The notes beneath the pieces are model-generated. The model was not told the origin of the DNA, did no database searches, and saw only the letters and a program-made list of their open reading frames with translations. Shown piece after piece: positions 10,708 through 20,302 of a DNA stretch of 20,477 nucleotides. Each line of letters begins with the position of its first letter. Within the stretch, counting starts at the first letter, position 1. Source of the DNA: Candidatus Abyssobacteria bacterium SURF_5 (GTDB lineage: Bacteria; Abyssobacteria; SURF-5); assembly GCA_003598085.1 (NCBI GenBank), contig QZKU01000124.1:1-20477 (forward strand). Reading direction: 5' to 3'. The position numbers and the translations under genes were made by a program.

Positions 10708-10785
10708 ATGCCGAAAAACTCGCGGCGCTGGAGGTTTGAAGAAGTCGTACCATACCAGGCATTTTCCGGAGACGTGCAGCAATGA
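10708..10785 (+). CDS. 25-codon leader ORF overlapping the GIY-YIG gene
   Basis: Begins MPKNSRRWRFEEVVPY and ends SGDVQQ. AAAAGGGA lies seven bases before ATG 10708, a better ribosome site than most in this window. The stop TGA (10783-10785) overlaps the next ATG (10782-10784) as ATGA. It is the first reading frame after promoter copy 2. It may be a translated leader that couples to the next gene, a small regulatory or modulator protein, or the last piece of a lost gene. No family recognised. Confidence 0.5.
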   Translation: MPKNSRRWRFEEVVPYQAFSGDVQQ

Positions 10786-11681
10786 ATAAAGCTGCCCCTT
10801 TTTCACTCCGCATATTTGTGGCAGGTGGCGACCCAGACGGGTTACGACTAGTCGAACGTTCCAACTGGACGGGTAAGGCGATAATATTCCCCCGTGCGTT
10901 GTATCCCGAAGTGCGTGGTCGGGACGAGTTCCAACAAACCGGGGTATATCTCTTGCTTGGTCCGCGTATGCATGGCGAAGGTGAGATGCTCTACATCGGC
11001 GAGGGTGATCCGGTTAGACCACGTCTTGATGAGCACTTCGCAAGAAAAGACTTCTGGACACGAGCCGTCTTCTTTGTCGCCGGGCCGGGTAACCTCAATA
11101 AAGCACATATCGAGTTCTTGGAATCTCAGTTGGTCAGACTCGCCAAGGCGGCAAAGCGGATGCCACTCGAGAATTCCAACAGCCCTTCCGAGCCTACTCT
11201 CTCCGAAGCCGACCGGGCCGACATGGAGGTTTTTCTTCAGAATATTCTAGGCATCTTGCCGGTGCTCGGAATTCACGCCTTTGAGCAAACAACGCTGGAT
11301 CTGAACTCGAAAATGGATAAGACTCTACTTCACTGCGCCGGGCGAGGCATAGAGGCGACGGGGTATGACACACCCAAAGGATTTCTAGTATTGTCCGGGT
11401 CGTTTGCCGCCATGAAGGAAGTGCCGTCTCTCAAGAAGTATTTCCCGAATGTGTGCGAAGTGCGCGAAGACTTGATCTCGAATGGTGTACTGGTGGCGCA
11501 GGGAGATAAGTATTACTTTACGCAGGATTATACATTCAGCTCCCCGTCGCTGGCGTCGTCGGTCGTGCTTGCTCGATCCTCGAACGGTCGCACTGACTGG
11601 AAGGATGCCACCGGGACGACGCTGAAAGAGACCCAAGAGAGTCTAGCCGCGATTGTGCCGGATTGGGACGAGGAAAAATGA
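10782..11681 (+). CDS. GIY-YIG nuclease-family protein with C-terminal DUF4357
   Basis: 299 aa. Residues 53-120 carry the GIY-YIG core: TGVYLLLG (GVY 54-56), MLYIGEG (YIG 71-73), R81 and H85 in PRLDEHF, and the metal-binding Glu in FLESQL (E114). Residues about 198-285 match DUF4357 (GFLVLSGSFAA; YYFTQDYTFSSPSLASSVVLARSSNGRTDWK), a domain commonly found behind such nucleases and beside type I restriction genes. A weak GGAG lies 10 bases upstream. It overlaps the leader ORF by four bases and the following short ORF by four. The likely role is an accessory DNA nuclease, or DNA-end recognition, within the restriction operon. Whether it cleaves DNA is not shown by sequence. Confidence 0.85.
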   Translation: MNKAAPFSLRIFVAGGDPDGLRLVERSNWTGKAIIFPRALYPEVRGRDEFQQTGVYLLLGPRMHGEGEMLYIGEGDPVRPRLDEHFARKDFWTRAVFFVAGPGNLNKAHIEFLESQLVRLAKAAKRMPLENSNSPSEPTLSEADRADMEVFLQNILGILPVLGIHAFEQTTLDLNSKMDKTLLHCAGRGIEATGYDTPKGFLVLSGSFAAMKEVPSLKKYFPNVCEVREDLISNGVLVAQGDKYYFTQDYTFSSPSLASSVVLARSSNGRTDWKDATGTTLKETQESLAAIVPDWDEEK

Positions 11682-11854
11682 ACGAAGCTGAAACCAGAGC
11701 CGAATTTATTTATGGTCTTCTGCAACCAATTGCTCAAGCGGAATCAGCAGTGCGTGCCGGATTGTGTATGTTATGGACTGTTATTGAACGGCTCAACGGA
11801 AGGAGCATGAATGGCGAAGGTAAACAATGGCGCGAATCTCGGCTTCGAGAATGA
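11678..11854 (+). CDS. Short ORF with HsdR-like N-terminal motif, possible remnant
   Basis: 58 aa. It starts [26 protein letters not shown] is the hallmark opening of EcoEI-like HsdR subunits, in which it continues with a P-x-L…GW region; here the similarity stops after about ten residues. The start has GAGGAA just upstream and overlaps the GIY-YIG stop as ATGA. The 3' end overlaps hsdM by 44 bases in another frame. The operon has a complete EcoR124-type hsdR further down, so this may be what is left of a second restriction subunit after a deletion, or a translated coupling ORF that carries ribosomes to hsdM. Chance resemblance is possible. Confidence 0.4.
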
Positions 11855-13400
11855 ACTCTGGAAGGCTGCCGATGCGCTGCGCTCGAATATGGATGCCGCC
11901 GAATATAAGCATGTTGTGCTCGGCCTGATTTTCCTCAAGTACATATCCGACGCATTCGAAGAGCAGCACGCGAAGCTGGAGGCGCAGCGTAAACAGGGAG
12001 CCGACCCGGAAGACCCGGACGAATACCGAGCAGGCAACATCTTTTGGGTGCCGAAAGAAGCTCGCTGGTCCGTGTTCAAAGCAAACGCGAAGCAGCCGAC
12101 CATCGGTAAAATCCTGGACGAAGCCATGGTCGCCATCGAGTGCGACAACTCCTCTCTCAAGGGAGTGCTTCCAAAAGAATACGCTCACCCGCGTCTCGAC
12201 AAGCAGCGGCTTGGTCAGCTAATCGACCTTGTCGGGAAGATCGGCCTCGGCGATAGAGAGAGCCGGACAAAGGATATCCTGGGCGGCGTATACGAGTATT
12301 TCCTGTCACAGTTTGCGAGCGCCGAAGGCAAAAAGGGCGGCCAGTTCTATACGCCGCGTTCTGTAGTTCGCGTCTTGGTCGAAATGCTGGCTCCTTATAA
12401 CGGGCGCGTGTATGATCCCTGCTGCGGCTCTGGCGGCATGTTCGTTCAGTCGGTCGAATTTGTGAAGGCTCATTCATCTGGCAACGGTAACGGCGGCAAA
12501 CGCAAAGGCGATGTAAGCATCTTCGGCCAGGAGTCGAACCATACCACCTGGCGGCTGGCGAAGATGAATCTTGCCATTCGAGGTATTGACGGCAATCTCG
12601 GCAAAGAGCATGCCGATATTTTTCATCATGATCTTCACCCTGACCTCAAGGCTGACTACGTCCTCGCCAATCCGCCTTTCAATGACAGCGACTGGCGCGG
12701 AGACCTTCTCAAGGACGACAAACGCTGGAAGTATGGGATTCCGCCAGCGGGAAACGCCAACTTCGCCTGGGTACAGCACTTCATCTATCATCTCGCTCCG
12801 ACCGGACTCGCCGGTTTCGTGCTCGCGAATGGCTCCATGTCCTCAAACCAATCGAATGAAGGCGAAATCAGAAAGAACATCATAGAGGCTGACCTAGTGG
12901 ATAGCATGGTGGCACTGCCGGGACAACTTTTCTATTCAACGCAGATTCCTGTCTGCCTGTGGTTCCTCACTCGCGAGAAGAAGAACAGCCGCTTCCGTGA
13001 CCGGCGCGGAGAGACACTGTTCATCGACGCGCGAAAGCTCGGCACGATGATTGACCGTGTCCACCGTGAACTTACGGGCGAGGACATTCAGAAGGTGGCT
13101 GGCACATACCATGCGTGGCGAGGAGACAAGATTCCCGATGGTAGGGGCGGGTTTGAAACCCGCCCGTATGAGGACGTTCCAGGCTTCTGCAAATCAGCCA
13201 CACTCGATGATATCCGGCAGTACAACCACATCCTCACGCCAGGACGGTATGTCGGCGCAGCCGAAGCCGAAGACAGTGGCGACCCGTTCGAAGAAAAGAT
13301 GGAGCGGTTAACCGCGGCTCTTCGCGGACAGATGGAACAGTCCACCAAGCTCGATAAACTCATATGGGCGAATCTGGAGGATATCGGGCATGGCGGGTAA
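11811..13400 (+). CDS. hsdM: Type I restriction-modification system DNA adenine methyltransferase subunit HsdM
   Basis: 529 aa, full length. It transfers methyl from S-adenosylmethionine to N6 of adenine when assembled as M2S1. The N-terminal HsdM_N helical domain ([39 protein letters not shown]) is followed by the N6_Mtase domain with SAM motif DPCCGSGG (D202-G209) and catalytic NPPF (N287-F290), then the usual WRG…[11 protein letters not shown] end region. GGAAGGAG lies five bases before ATG 11811. In that end region the residues 444-452 (GRGGFETRP) are encoded by a REP-like palindrome inserted in frame; relatives normally run almost directly from WRGx to YEDVPGF. Overlaps hsdS by 11 bases. 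The insertion lies after the catalytic core, so activity may be kept. Confidence 0.96.
13141..13165 (+). repeat. REP-like palindrome, copy 2, inside hsdM
   Basis: The head GTAGGGGCGG (13141-13150) and tail CCGCCC (13160-13165) are the same as in the intergenic copy at 5976-6001. The arms GGGCGGGTTT (13145-13154) and AAACCCGCCC (13156-13165) pair perfectly over 10 bp around a single G. Read in frame it gives GRGGFETRP within HsdM. Confidence 0.75.
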
Positions 13401-14682
13401 TTGGAGATACGTGAAACTCGAAGATATTGCAGCCGATAAGGACCGCCCTTTTGCAATGGGACCATTTGGTTCCAATATCAGAGCCGTGAACTATCGTGAA
13501 TCAGGAATTCCAGTGATACGTGGCATAAATCTCGGCAAACCCGGAGAGCCTCGATTTGAGTCCGACGATTTTACCTTCTTGACAGAGGCGAAAGCAAACG
13601 AACTCAGCAGTTCATCTGCTTATCCCAAGGATGTCGTTTTTGTCGCTCAAGGCACTGTCGGAAAAGTGGGCATAGTCCCGAGCGATACTCCTTACGAACA
13701 ATTCATCCTGTCGCAAAATCTTATGAAAGTAACTCTAAATGAAGATGTGGCCGATCCTCTTTTTGTTTTCTACTATTTTCGTTCAAGAGAAGGGCAGCAC
13801 GAGATACTTTCATATGTGAATCCAACGGGTGTTCCCTGTATCAGTAAGCCGCTGACTTCGCTCCGGCAATTCAAGGTGCGGTTACCTAGCGATGTCAAAG
13901 AACAAAAAGCCATTGCATGCATCCTCGGCGCATTGGACGACAAGATCGAGTTTAACCGGCGGATGAATCAGACGCTGGAGGCAATAACACGCACCATCTT
14001 CGAGAGCTGGTTTGTTGCCTTTGACCCGGTTATATCCAAGGCCGGTAAGCAGTCACCAAGCGGAATGACTCCGGAGGTTGCGGATTGCTTTCCTGACGCA
14101 TTTATTAATTTGGAAAGTGGATCAATGCCTATGGGATGGCAAATGCATCAACTCAATGAGGTGTGCGAGTTTGCCTATGGAAAAGCATTGAAAGCGTCAG
14201 ATCGAGTCTCTGGGCATATTGCCGTTATGGGGTCGAATGGTCAAGTTGGCTGGCATAATGAGGCTCTCGTGGCCGGCCCTGGAGTGGTCGTGGGACGCAA
14301 GGGGAATCCCGGAATTGTCACATGGGTCCACCGCGATTTTTATCCCATTGATACGACATTCTATGTAGTCCCTACAATGAAAGACATGCCGTTAACTTTC
14401 TTGTACGAGGCGATTAAGAAACTCAATTTGCCCAAACTCAGCTCAGACTCGGCTGTGCCTGGGCTGAATAGAAACTTTGCTTATATGTCTCGTATCGTCG
14501 TACCAACAACAGATGTCCTAAGGGCATTTGACCGACAGGCTACTCCACTGTACCAGCGACGTTTCATTGCCGATGAGCAGACCCATTTGCTGATCGAGAT
14601 ACGAGATGCTCTGTTGCCTCAGCTAATTGATGGATTAATCGGACTTGAAAAAGCTGAACAGATCGTTGGGAGATGCACCTGA
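13390..14682 (+). CDS. hsdS: Type I restriction-modification specificity subunit HsdS
   Basis: 430 aa, full length. It recognises the bipartite DNA target and holds the two HsdM and two HsdR subunits together. The N-terminal target recognition domain spans about residues 4-165 ([10 protein letters not shown]…, [15 protein letters not shown]). A conserved helical spacer starts at E171 ([27 protein letters not shown]) and ends near [11 protein letters not shown]. The second recognition domain runs about 240-380, with [12 protein letters not shown] and a C-terminal helical conserved region ([18 protein letters not shown]). The distance between recognition half-sites is set by the spacer helix; the target sequence cannot be read from here. 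Starts inside the end of hsdM; no internal repeat or truncation was seen. Confidence 0.95.
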
Positions 14683-15809
14683 TGTCAACTGCATTAGACT
14701 CAATAGCCCCCCATTTTCGCCGAGTTGCGGACCGTTGGCCTGACGCGCAGACCTTGAGCAACCACTACCAAGCGGTGGTCGCGAGTTACCAAGGAAACCA
14801 GCATGGTCTCGTCGAAACGGTCAAATCCTTTGTTGAGTCTGTCTGTCTTACCATACTCGGCGAATACGGCATGCCGATGCCATCTTCTGACGCATCGATG
14901 ACCATGATGCTTGTGGAGGCGCTCCGTCTTCTTGGTCTGCAGAACACGCGCGGCGCAAGTAAGCTTGATAGAATCCTTTCAGCTCACAATCGGTTAGCGG
15001 ACGCTCTCAGTGAAATGCGGAATGTAAATGGTCCCATTGCTCATGGGAAGGATGGGTTTCTCGATTCACTAACGCAAAACCATGTGCGCACCTATCTTTT
15101 GACTGCGGATACCCTTCTCTCGCTCCTTTTAGCAGCGTTTGAAGGCACTGAGCCTGATCTCCAATTCACCCGCGAGCCATACGAGCGATTTAATCATCTA
15201 CATAACCGCGTTGACAGCTCAGTGACCGTCAACTCAGCAATCGAGTATGAAGATGACTCGCCGGTCTTAGTTATATCGATGAAGACTGGTGGGCTTCCCG
15301 ATGGCATTGAGTTGCGGATAGAGCCGAGTCGGCTGCTATACGCCATAGACCGCACCGCATACATCGAAATCCTTGCCGCATCTACCGTCCAAGCCGCTGC
15401 ATCGGCCACTGCAGGGCGAAAGGCGGAGGAGATGCTCGTTGTTTCTTCGCCGGGGCCAATCGAGGAGGAGCCAGCTTCTGAAGTCAACCGCACCTACACG
15501 GGATACCTGTCGCCACTAACGGAGGAATTGCGCCGTTACGTGATTTCGCTCGATCTGTCCGCAACCACGCCATTGCCTTCTGGTGTGAGCATCATTGAGT
15601 CAGTATTGGGAACAGCAGAGGCCAACATGGGTACCGACTGGAAAGAGCGGGAATCGCTACAGGCGCGGATGAAAGTTGCATTTCGCCGCACACTTACTCA
15701 GTTTGGAATTCCAGAGGGTAAGGCAAAGGAGGGCGCAGAACATTTAGTCGCATGGTTCAAGATTCAGGCGATCGGTCTGCCCAATGGTGAGGGGGACTCT
15801 GCTCGGTGA
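14682..15809 (+). CDS. Abi_C-type abortive infection protein with HsdR-like C-terminal segment
   Basis: 375 aa from ATG 14682, chosen because GGGAG lies nine bases upstream and it touches the hsdS stop as TGATG; ATG 14673 is the alternative. Residues 1-150 are helical and include the Abi_C signature [14 protein letters not shown] (R113, N114, H121, G122), related to the RN…H motif of HEPN-fold RNases. A variable middle follows. Residues 319-347 ([20 protein letters not shown]…GIPEGK) align with HsdR 1010-1038 in the pattern DWxxRExxxAxMxV, R-x-L, G-x-P, K. The inferred role is a second-line, possibly RNA-cleaving, function linked to the restriction complex. Overlaps hsdR as GTGA. A complete, intact frame. 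Confidence 0.8.
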
Positions 15810-18800
15810 TCGCGAACAGCTTTACAGAATCCATCGTTGAACAGGCCACGCTGGCGTGGCTGGAAGCAATGGAATATAAGATTCTCTCGGGGCTGGAAAT
15901 CGCACCAGGTGAGGCGTTGGCGGAGCGCGAGAGCTATGCGCAGGTGATTCTTGAAAGCCACCTGCGGCAGGCTCTCCAGCGGCTGAACCCCGAAGTTCCA
16001 CCGGATGCCCTTGAGGAAGCTTTCCGAAAGCTGGCACGGCCCGACTCGCCCTCTCTGATAGGAAATAACCATGCTCTGCATAAATACCTCATTGAGGGAG
16101 TGCCAGTTGAGTATGAGCATGCAGATGGCACCATTCGCGGAGACCTCATGCGCGTGCTGGATTATGAAAACCCGGATGAGAATGAATTTCTGGCGGTGAA
16201 TCAGTTCACCGTCTCTGAGGATCACCATGAACGCAGGCCGGATATAGTCCTGTTTATCAACGGGCTTCCGCTGGCCGTCATCGAGCTTAAGAATGCCGCC
16301 GATGAGAATGCAACTATCTGGTCAGCCTTCAATCAGCTTCAAACATATAAGGACCAGATACCGTCGCTGTTCGCCTACAATGAGGCGCTCGTCATCTCGG
16401 ACGGCACAAATGCACGCATCGGAACTCTCACCGCCGACCGGGAGTGGTTTATGCCGTGGCGGACTATAGAAGGGCAGGAACTGGCTGATTCATGCCTCCC
16501 GCAGTTGCAGGTGGCGCTGGAGGGACTTTTCGAGAAACGGCGCTTCCTGGACCTGATACGTTACTTCACAGTCTTTGAGGATACCGGCGGCGGAGTCCTG
16601 GTAAAGAAGATGGCAGGCTACCATCAGTACCATGCGGTAAATGTAGCTGTGGAAGAGACTGTCCGCGCTACCGCCCCCGTTCAAAGGGCCGAGTTGTCGA
16701 AAGAGGGCGAAGGCACATATTTTGCCCGTAGTCGCCCCGACGCGACGCCCGGCGACCGGCGCGTCGGAGTCGTATGGCACACGCAAGGCTCCGGCAAGAG
16801 CCTGACAATGGCCTTCTATGCCGGGCGGGTTGTCTTGCATCCGAAAATGGAAAACCCGACCCTGATCGTCATTACCGACCGCAATGACCTGGACGATCAA
16901 CTCTTCGGGACGTTCGGACGATGTTCTGAACTACTGCGGCAACAACCGGTGAAAGCGGAGAGCAGGGCGGATTTGCGTGAGAAATTGAAAGTGGCCTCGG
17001 GCGGGGTTGTCTTTACCACGGTCCAGAAGTTTTTCCCGCTCGAGGGCGAAGATCGGCATCCCATTTTATCTGAAAGACATAACATAGTTGTCATCGCCGA
17101 CGAGGCTCATCGAAGCCAGTATGAATTCGGAAGGAAATTGAATCGAGAATCCGGTGAGCTTCGAGATGGATTTGCGCATAGTATGCGGCTCGCTCTTCCG
17201 AACGCTTCCTTTATCGGGTTTACAGGGACTCCCCTGGAACTGACTGACAGGAACACCCGGAAAGTATTTGGCGAATACATCAGCATTTACGATATCGAGC
17301 GGGCGGTTCAGGATGAAGCGACAGTGCCGATCTACTATGAAAGCCGCTTGGCGAAGCTGGAGCTTGACGAGGCGGAGCGCCCGAAGGTGGACCCGGAATT
17401 CGAGGAGGTCACCGAAGGCGAAGAAGTCGAGCATAGGGAGCGGCTGAAAACAAAGTGGGCGCAGCTTGAAGCCATTGTCGGCGCCGAAAAAAGAATCCGG
17501 CTGATCGCGCAGGATATCGTGAACCATTTCGAGAATCGGCTGGACGCCATGTACGGCAAGGCAATGATCGTGTGCATGAGCCGCCGCATCTGTGTCGAAC
17601 TGTATAAGGCGATAGTCGCTCTGCGGCCGCAGTGGCACGGCAGCAAGGACAAGGAGGGAATTATAAAGGTCATTATGACCGGCTCGGCGTCCGACCCGGC
17701 CGAATGGCAACCGCATATCCGTTCACAAAAGCCGCTTGAGCAGCTTGCCAACCGCTTCAGAGATTCAAAAGATCGTTTTCAAATAGTCATCGTGCGTGAT
17801 ATGTGGCTTACGGGTTTCGATGTGCCATCCCTGCATACCATGTACATGGACAAGCCGATGCGCAGCCATGGGCTGATGCAGGCGATAGCGCGGGTAAACC
17901 GCAAGTTCGGGAAAAAACCCGGCGGGCTGGTTGTCGATTATCTCGGGCTGGCGCACGAACTGCAGTCAGCGGTCGAGAGTTATACGAGGAGCGGCGGTCA
18001 GGGAGAGACGGCGATCGATCAGGCGAAGGCTGTCCAGGCGCTGCTTGAGAAATATGAAATTTGCTGCGGAATTTTCCACGGGTTTGACTGGTCGAAATGG
18101 AAATCCGGCAGTCCGCAAGAGCGGCTGTCGGTTCTGCCTGCCGCCCAGGAGCATGTGCTCAAGCAGGAGGACGGTAAAGAGAGATTATCGCGAGCGGTAA
18201 CTGACTTGTCGCACGCGTTTGCGCTGTCCGTGCCGCATGAAAAGGCGCTGGAAATCCGAGACGACGTCGCCTTTTTCCAGGCTGTAAAGTCGGTCATGCA
18301 AAAAAGCATCACAGGCGGCCGGCGCAGCCCTGAGGAACTCGACGTCGCCATCAGGCAGATCGTTTCACGCGCCGTGGCGTCCGACCAGATCATCGATATC
18401 TTCGCGGCCGCCGGCCTCAAAAGACCGGATGTCTCAATCCTTTCGGATGAATTCCTGGCAGAGGTGCGCGACATGCCGCACCGGAATCTGGCAGTCGAGA
18501 TGCTGCGAAAGCTGCTGGATGGAGAGATTAAGACTCGCAAGCGAAAGAACGTCGTGCAAGGCCGGTCGTTCGCGCAAATGCTAGAGGAATCGATCAGGCG
18601 CTATCAGAATCGAGCCATTGCGACAGTGCAGGTCATCGAAGAGTTGATAAAGCTGGCGAAAGATATGCGCGAGGCTGACAGGCGCGGAGAGAAACTTGGT
18701 CTGACCGAAGAAGAGGTCGCCTTTTATGACGCTCTCGAAACGAATGATAGCGCGGTGGCCGTTCTGGGCGACGAGACGCTGCGGATAATTGCGCAGGAGC

Positions 18801-18991
18801 TTGTGAAGACGGTGCGCGAGAATACGACGATTGACTGGACCGTGCGCGAGAATGTTCGGGCGAAGATGAGGGTCATGATCAAGCGGATTCTCCGGCGCTA
18901 CGGATATCCGCCCGACAAGCAGGCGCGCGCGACAGAGCTTGTGCTGGAACAGGCGGAAGTACTCTGCCTTGAGGTGACTTATGAACAATGA
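15806..18991 (+). CDS. hsdR: Type I restriction-modification system endonuclease/translocase subunit HsdR
   Basis: 1061 aa, full length, EcoR124I type. It translocates DNA with ATP and cuts it far from the unmethylated target. The N-terminal PD-(D/E)xK nuclease shows D146 in RRPDIV and E160-L-K162 in VIELKN, with the downstream QLQTYK motif. The SF2 motor shows Walker A HTQGSGKS (H325-S332), DEAH (D432-H435), [25 protein letters not shown] and QAIARVNR. The C-terminal part (DUF3387-like) ends with [14 protein letters not shown]…GYPPDK, the part of HsdR near the methyltransferase contact region. Starts at GTG 15806, overlapping the Abi gene's TGA and preceded by GAGGGGGA. All key residues are present, so the system should be active. 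Confidence 0.96.
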
Positions 18992-19044: not shown

Positions 19045-19686
19045 ATGGACATTTTAACATTCATTGCCGAAATCACTAGATCAATCACCTGGCCCTTTTG
19101 TATTTTTTTGATCTTTCTTGTCACTCGACGGAAGCTTATTGAGCTTTTTCCACGATTGATGAACATCAGATATAAGGATTTTGAAGTCAATTTTGCGGAA
19201 ACTTTTCGACGTATTGAATCGCGTGCAAAGAAAGCAGGATCGCTTCCTGAATTACCGTCCAATAAACCGGCTGAACCTGCGCCAAAAGAATTGTCGGGAT
19301 CAAAAAGATGGGAATGGTATCGGAAGCTCGCTTCATCATTGCCTCGTAGAGCCATAGAGAATGCTTGGACAGACGTTGAAAAAGCAATTTTCAATCTCTC
19401 AGACTTTTGGGATTATGACGACCCTCAGAATGACGAATATCCAGTCCCCTCTTGGACAATTGGTAGACTCAAAAAGAATGGTCTTCTCTCCCCGGACCTT
19501 GCCTATACATATGAAGACCTCGGCAGAGTTTATAATCTGATGCAGTCCCACCCAGAAATGGCGGTCACCAGTCGGGAAGCCCTTGTTTTTTTACAATGGG
19601 CAGAACAAGTTAGCAAAGCGTTGATTCAAATTGCGGAACAAAATCAGCAATCTGGGGTGCAAGTGCAAACCAAGAATAGTAATTAA
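19045..19686 (+). CDS. Membrane-anchored protein of unknown function
   Basis: 213 aa from ATG 19045 (TTG 19030 is possible). One N-terminal membrane helix (residues about 12-27, TWPFCIFLIFLV) is followed by TRRKLIELFPRLMNIRYKDFEVNF, a Pro-rich linker near 68-82 and a helical cytoplasmic domain (about 90-205) ending in a Gln-rich tail. The arrangement of a single helix, then RYKDFEVNF, is seen in many small unannotated membrane proteins, but I cannot name a family. It is separated from hsdR by 53 bases and is clearly more A+T-rich than hsdR, which suggests a separate acquisition. It may be read through from the operon; no promoter of its own stands out. Confidence 0.7.
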   Translation: MDILTFIAEITRSITWPFCIFLIFLVTRRKLIELFPRLMNIRYKDFEVNFAETFRRIESRAKKAGSLPELPSNKPAEPAPKELSGSKRWEWYRKLASSLPRRAIENAWTDVEKAIFNLSDFWDYDDPQNDEYPVPSWTIGRLKKNGLLSPDLAYTYEDLGRVYNLMQSHPEMAVTSREALVFLQWAEQVSKALIQIAEQNQQSGVQVQTKNSN

Positions 19687-19726
19687 ATATGCACAGCTAA
19701 AATCAACTTCTATAGTTAAAGATAGC

Positions 19727-20302
19727 ATGGTCATTCCGGCTAGAAGACATCTATTTTTTCTTTCCTCTATCCTTCTGCTCTTAATCGCCGCCATTCCTCC
19801 CCCTGACCAGCCTCCTCCGTTCGATGGACAAGTCACTGTCGAGCGGCTCCAAGAGCTATACGGCGAGCCGCTTTATCATCGCCAGTATGACGAGCCGAAA
19901 TCCGAAACCGTCGGCCCTGTCACCCTCACGTATGACGAAGAAATCGCCTTCCAGTACAAGGGCCGCCAACTTACGTACTACTTCCTCCGCTATCAGGCGC
20001 GCGGTGTTGGTGACCTGCCTGGGCCGATTCGTATCCCCGCACAGGTCGTGCGCATGGTTGATGGCGATACAATCGTCGTCCGGCTATTCAACGAGACTGA
20101 CGGGAAGGTTCGGTACATCGGCATCGACACGCCGGAAACAAAGCATCCTGATAAAGGTGTTGAATATTACGGCCAGGAAGCCACCGAAGCGAACAAGCGC
20201 CAGGTGGACGGCAAGGACGTTGAGCTTGAGCCTGACGTGCAGCGGTGGGACTGGTATCAGAGACTGCTGGCGTATGCGTATTTCGAGGACGTTTACTCTT
20301 GA
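19727..20302 (+). CDS. Secreted staphylococcal-nuclease-like (thermonuclease) protein, 3' end probably damaged
   Basis: 191 aa. ATG 19727 gives a signal peptide (IPARRHLFFLSSILLLLIAAIP), so export is likely. Residues from about 110 are the SNase OB-fold: VVRMVDGDTIVV, RYIGIDTPET (the catalytic Arg, Asp and Glu of the family) and WYQRLLAYAY with the second Arg. The frame stops right after EDVYS, where relatives continue with about 25-40 more residues (VNAELVRxGYA). The next bases read in the +1 frame give LDLLTQC, then a further shift gives YLKE, which looks like that missing part after two indels. The 90-residue region between signal and nuclease domain is of unknown function. It may be a pseudogene or a shortened enzyme. 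Confidence 0.75.
   Translation: MVIPARRHLFFLSSILLLLIAAIPPPDQPPPFDGQVTVERLQELYGEPLYHRQYDEPKSETVGPVTLTYDEEIAFQYKGRQLTYYFLRYQARGVGDLPGPIRIPAQVVRMVDGDTIVVRLFNETDGKVRYIGIDTPETKHPDKGVEYYGQEATEANKRQVDGKDVELEPDVQRWDWYQRLLAYAYFEDVYS

Follow-up and report, generated by a model that had tools for sequence, protein, structure and literature searches.

A type I restriction operon with an embedded abi gene

The window analysed here, a stretch of 20,477 nucleotides from Candidatus Abyssobacteria bacterium SURF_5, contains a type I restriction-modification locus whose hsdM, hsdS and hsdR genes encode methyltransferase, specificity, nuclease and SF2 motor domains. A fourth gene, abi, lies between hsdS and hsdR. 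The order is hsdM-hsdS-abi-hsdR, with all genes on the forward strand and each overlapping the next:

10782..11681, + strand: PDC-S14-like accessory gene (DUF4357); PADLOC PDC-S14 E=5.9e-99, Pfam DUF4357 E=2.7e-23
11811..13400, + strand: hsdM; N6_Mtase E=2e-107, HsdM_N
13390..14682, + strand: hsdS; Methylase_S E=6e-14, PADLOC Specificity_I
14682..15809, + strand: abi, HEPN/Abi_C protein with HsdR-like tail, 375 aa; Abi_C 34.3 bits (cut-off 24)
14748..15140, + strand: predicted HEPN helical domain of Abi, aa 26-156, with R116 (15018-15020) and H124 (15042-15044); AlphaFold model and alignment
15222..15404, + strand: predicted beta strands and a helix with a PS-x-LLY-x-x-DR-x-AY motif, end of the conserved Abi core; A2 alignment, and model with low pLDDT
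15573..15776, + strand: Abi tail, aa 301-368, HsdR-homologous by Pfam, BLASTP and hhalign; DW at 15636-15641
15806..18991, + strand: hsdR, T1RH-like_C type, GTG start; T1RH-like_C E=6.5e-137, HSDR_N, SWI2_SNF2
18761..18979, + strand: C-terminal segment of HsdR, aa 986-1058, homologous to the Abi tail; DW at 18833-18838

The initial annotation had reported stop/start overlaps on both sides of abi, and these are present as TGATG, where hsdS stops and abi starts, and GTGA, where abi stops and hsdR starts. The longest abi reading frame opens at 14673 and encodes 378 aa, with the ATG at 14682 as Met4. We prefer the start at 14682 because it forms the TGATG with the hsdS stop, has GGGAG about 8 nt upstream and is where a homologue (L003, below) starts; amino acid positions nevertheless follow the 378-aa numbering throughout. 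The gene directly upstream of hsdM, which encodes a DUF4357 protein, matches PDC-S14, an uncharacterised PADLOC candidate, and is probably part of the same defence locus as hsdMS-abi-hsdR. Near the contig end, a Staphylococcal-nuclease-like frame (PF00565) at 19631-20302 holds only the first half of its domain.

Assignment of Abi to the Abi_C/HEPN-like proteins is borne out by Pfam, as PF14355 matches the window protein at 34.3 bits against a cut-off of 24, and the two tail-bearing homologues described below likewise exceed that cut-off. The same kind of domain search gave no AAA match and no FRG match in the window Abi. The putative catalytic arginine and histidine are invariant in all eight aligned members, with a family-wide spacing of R-x7-H that exceeds the described Rx4-6H by one residue. 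An AlphaFold model built on three sequences (mean pLDDT 59) features a helical domain resembling HEPN, then a beta region of poor prediction quality, a linker of low confidence at about 245-279 and finally a C-terminal helical module.

A C-terminal segment shared by Abi and HsdR

The resemblance first noticed between Abi and HsdR was an ungapped match of 29 positions, which we recovered as Abi 322-350 (319-347 when counted from Met4) against HsdR 1010-1038, with 12 identities. By itself this count is weak evidence, only marginally above chance: among 200 shuffled versions of Abi, two attained 12 identities in their best 29-residue window. Profile comparisons are decisive. BLASTP of Abi against HsdR aligned 50 aa with 16 identities (E=8e-7), and Pfam T1RH-like_C (PF11867) matched Abi 307-356 through model positions 268-317 of 329 (E=7.9e-6). 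At 25.9 bits the window Abi falls just below the T1RH-like_C cut-off of 26.8, as do the tails of its homologues in L003 (26.1) and L002 (19.5); what Abi carries is a homologous piece, the last sixth of T1RH-like_C, and not the full domain. Against an HMM trained solely on HsdR tails, the Abi proteins of the window, L003 and L002 scored 27.4, 31.2 and 16.5 bits, respectively, and none of these three scores was reached in 2,000 shuffles.

Comparing profile with profile, as the initial annotation had proposed, shows that the two segments are related: hhalign of Abi tails against HsdR tails gave a probability of 97.2% (E=4.4e-11). A profile made from three Abi sequences only (A1), run against 398 genomes, retrieved dozens of HsdR frames of about 1000-1100 aa from across a phylum, exclusively via its columns ~297-343, and in the L003 genome its sole matches were abi and hsdR. 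Chance or convergent similarity of amphipathic helices would account for the raw 12 of 29 identities; set against the shuffled controls of the HMM, the hhalign result and this retrieval of HsdRs by Abi alone, we consider it extremely improbable. The homologous region also exceeds 29 residues, running from about 301 to 356 in Abi and from about 989 to 1044 in HsdR, and its aspartate and tryptophan are invariant in 19 of 19 HsdR tails (alignment A4) and in all three Abi tails. Both segments are C-terminal, as originally described, with the tail at aa 301-368 of 378 in Abi and aa 986-1058 in HsdR. On these profile comparisons, the C-terminus of Abi and the final ~70 aa of the neighbouring HsdR are homologous.

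Structure prediction places similar helices in the two proteins. In the Abi model, the tail helices span 304-319, 323-343 and 348-368, with moderate confidence; in a model of the HsdR C-terminal domain (40 sequences, pLDDT 77), the terminal helices span 253-277, 283-303 and 308-332. Although the two AlphaFold models derive from separate alignments, in both the DW starts a 21-residue helix, after which come a short turn and the last helix. Searches of solved structures with Abi, the HsdR C-terminal domain and the tail profiles gave no convincing match, and the T1RH-like_C profile found no solved HsdR by sequence or fold. Foldseek and VIA-align comparisons of the models returned only unspecific helical matches and no fold match to EcoR124I HsdR.

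In HsdR, the segment forms part of a larger helical domain that the AlphaFold model places at aa 729-1061, and it may therefore naturally contact other parts of HsdR itself. The Abi tail might then tether the protein to HsdR, by a domain swap with the HsdR C-terminal domain, or to DNA, rather than to HsdM, and Abi would read the state of the motor instead of replacing HsdR. The title of Grinkevich 2018 (ref. 48 in PMC11411939), which links the EcoR124 domain to complex assembly and DNA binding, is compatible with such an arrangement. The Abi segment, however, is predicted to be helical, at moderate confidence, without the rest of the HsdR domain, and we regard a tether to HsdR or DNA as a possible but doubtful alternative.

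Distribution of the tail in hsd operons

Scanning one genome per species across 84,980 species for close relatives of Abi yielded two homologues. One (L002), from an alphaproteobacterial metagenome-assembled genome (MAG), has the order hsdM-hsdS-abi and then the beginning of an hsdR, which breaks off soon after; at L002 6745-6980 this hsdR start runs straight into the end of an hsdS-like frame, a junction that suggests recombination or misassembly. The other (L003), from a Bacteriovoracaceae MAG, has the order abi-hsdM-hsdS-further gene-hsdR, such that abi does not adjoin hsdR. Both homologues keep the tail with an invariant DWK-x-R. Among the three Abi proteins, identity is 18-26% in the tail versus 36-47% in the core, indicating that the tail diverges faster. 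Viral contigs and phage and plasmid records contained no further close relative of the window Abi.

Searches with HsdR and Abi profiles revealed that an Abi core often occupies the position between hsdS and hsdR, in the form of a tailless protein of 236-253 aa. Among the matches listed, the tail is absent from about 18 of the 21 distinct family members, including some encoded directly before hsdR, and present in three, namely those of the window, L002 and L003; many of the surveyed loci are metagenome assemblies, and sampling is uneven. The HsdR nearest to that of the window by its C-terminal domain (82% identity), in L049, is preceded at the same position by a tailless Abi_C protein. As most Abi homologues at this position are tailless, the tail is not needed for co-residence in an hsd operon, and the initial argument from operon position to a fixed stoichiometry, or to the tail itself, is weakened. 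In a tree of Abi cores, the three tailed proteins fall on one side of a branch with weak support (58/25), a topology weakly consistent with one gain of the tail or one loss elsewhere.

More generally, the gap between hsdS and hsdR is a hotspot for accessory genes in T1RH-type hsd operons. Across L118-L175, it holds genes for HEPN Abi, Fic, SIR2, RhuM, Abi_2, AAA_13 (PrrC/RloC-like), Mrr-like and BstXI-like nucleases, FRG, and FRG together with TIR; we found no tail on the Fic, SIR2, RhuM, Abi_2, AAA_13, Mrr or BstXI-like products. At three loci (L132, L133 and L219), a HEPN Abi gene sits beside an AAA_13 (PrrC/RloC-like) gene before hsdR, giving two candidate RNA-acting effectors per operon, and in L132 and L133 a PDC-S14 gene follows hsdR. 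Distant relatives of the Abi core (L085 7957-8967, L089 8117-9163 and L088 33-557) lie beside HsdM-like and HsdS-like genes and a ~790-aa gene; these loci represent a different multi-gene system that shares the R-x7-H HEPN core and has another C-terminus.

HEPN proteins are not the only effectors to bear the tail; an unrelated family has it too. In the window's genome, the PADLOC model PDC-S15 matches HsdR and Abi and nothing else. Members of PDC-S15 are FRG-domain proteins, and we rejected a RhuM-like assignment. The window Abi matches only the tail part of model PDLC04934 (aa 306-363) and carries no FRG domain, and a second PDC-S15 model, PDLC04927, matches HsdR through its C-terminal part. 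A 435-aa FRG protein is encoded in the order hsdM-hsdS-FRG-hsdR in L214, from a genome of the L002 phylum, and its tail exceeds the T1RH-like_C cut-off (49.5 bits, E=5.4e-13). Plasmid pRL11 of Rhizobium johnstonii 3841 (L215) has the same order; the tail of its FRG protein (RL_RS30270, WP_011654852.1) scores more weakly (16.3 bits), yet the protein aligns with the L214 FRG protein through the tail. A viral contig (L218) has the order hsdM-hsdS-FRG-TIR-hsdR and a diverged FRG tail that has lost the DW. Compared by hhalign, these three FRG tails match HsdR tails at 98.3% (E=1.7e-14). Two FRG relatives inspected outside hsd loci, from Legionella and Vibrio, matched in the FRG part only and had no tail. 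By profile comparison, then, effectors of an unrelated family that occupy this operon position bear the same tail. In the operon survey proposed at the outset, tailed effectors recurred, as HEPN proteins in L002 and L003 and as FRG proteins in L214, L215 and L218, and most Abi proteins of the family lacked the tail.

Several other candidates were discarded. The FRG protein of L173 contains DW at its C-terminus, but its HMM score was not significant and it was left out. Short reading frames ending in a tail (L034, L036, L039-L045 and L092-L105) are nearly all decayed genes or pieces of HsdR truncated by a contig end, and a tail beside a DUF4145 gene on a Gloeothece plasmid (L106) is a 98-aa HsdR remnant, not an effector. 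At L083 10500-10686, hsdR stops abruptly before the tail and is followed by the apparent start of a transposase gene, so this hsdR is probably interrupted by an insertion.

The frequency of such hsdR fragments, the adjacency of abi and hsdR, and the faster divergence of the tail would all suit a tail that is a non-functional remnant of recombination between neighbours. A remnant, however, would hardly be kept open in three Abi lineages whose cores share only 36-47% identity, or retained in L003, where abi does not adjoin hsdR, or be present again in FRG proteins; we consider this explanation very unlikely. Effector tails resemble the HsdR encoded alongside them no more than they resemble other HsdRs, so recent copying from the neighbour is unsupported and the tails are probably old and diverging independently. 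Alternatively, Abi could act alone or through its core, with the operon serving expression coupling and co-mobilisation and the tail only stabilising or dimerising the protein. The many tailless homologues at the same position, together with the tailless Fic, SIR2, RhuM, Abi_2, AAA_13 and nuclease genes of the gap, favour such autonomy, but the tail is specifically HsdR-like and, within such operons, is present on effectors of two unrelated folds, and we judge this alternative unlikely.

A possible docking function and its relation to known systems

Our preferred reading, which we rate as an even proposition, is that abi encodes a latent HEPN RNase, PrrC-like in its logic, that is tethered to the type I complex by an HsdR-homologous C-terminal module. 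It starts from the tail homology, the operon position, the recurrence of the tail on an unrelated effector and the conserved putative catalytic arginine and histidine, all of which are established here; from these we infer RNase activity, HsdM as the partner, silencing and release. The RNA-cutting part would be the HEPN core (aa 26-156). The tail, comprising a helix, the DW-capped 21-residue helix and the last helix, would occupy the site of HsdR's own C-terminal helices, most likely on HsdM of the M2S core. A contact between the C-terminal helical domain of HsdR and the methyltransferase has been proposed or assumed for EcoR124I (PMC5248579), and it is by analogy with this literature that the HsdR and Abi tails would bind HsdM. 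Abi may also compete with HsdR or replace it, as the initial annotation envisaged. Tethering would keep the RNase near the complex and silenced by it. Should the complex be inhibited or lost when a phage infects, the RNase would be released or switched on and growth would cease, as for PrrC of EcoprrI. Several observations count against this reading: the scarcity of tails among the listed Abi homologues, the faster divergence of the tail relative to the core, the lack of a fold match to EcoR124I HsdR by Foldseek or VIA-align, the L218 FRG tail without DW, and the lengthened R-x7-H spacing.

A broader version of the docking idea, which we hold tentatively and with slightly more doubt than belief, is that the C-terminal helices of T1RH-like HsdRs are an interchangeable plug, and that the same methyltransferase socket takes HsdR or HEPN and FRG effectors. 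If so, the restriction complex would be a platform for several responses. A segment common to HsdR and two unrelated effectors is a concrete, mutable candidate for a docking element, and suggests a route by which restriction operons could gain new effectors. The idea is open to laboratory genetics in the cultured R. johnstonii 3841, on pRL11. Overall, the homology is well supported at the level of sequence and the proposed function plausible: the shared segment may be a plug that docks effectors onto the restriction complex.

Among described candidates, PADLOC PDC-S15 shares with the window Abi the C-terminal HsdR tail and, in L214 and L215, the location between hsdS and hsdR, but has an FRG domain where the window Abi has HEPN. 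The role of the PDC-S15 tail is apparently not described in the literature searched, and the shared tail suggests a function for these uncharacterised candidates. AbiJ and other Abi_C proteins resemble the window Abi in their Abi_C HEPN domain, and PADLOC reports a weak AbiJ match; the window protein differs in lacking the AbiJ N-terminal domain and in having an extra beta region and the HsdR-like tail. Anantharaman et al. (2013, PMC3710099) reported at least 16 HEPN clades in restriction neighbourhoods, as well as fusions with helicase and endonuclease subunits. Like these families, abi is a HEPN gene with conserved arginine and histidine embedded in a restriction operon; unlike the fusions, its product is a separate protein bearing the terminal segment of HsdR rather than a whole helicase.

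The closest parallel in logic would be EcoprrI. PrrC, an anticodon nuclease with a HEPN domain, is encoded in an hsd operon and kept inactive by the type IC complex, and inhibition of that complex by phage T4 releases it (PMC3874165; PMC3710099), so a type I complex can restrain a suicide nuclease. The window abi likewise lies within an hsd operon and would encode a HEPN RNase, and a suicide effector silenced by the complex is, by analogy, its proposed logic. Abi differs from PrrC in lacking the N-terminal ABC-ATPase (AAA_13) domain, and with no AAA match it does not qualify as a PrrC, though it may resemble one in logic. The window HsdR is also of the T1RH-like_C kind, and Abi carries an HsdR-like tail, a docking element shared with HsdR that those two papers do not describe for PrrC.
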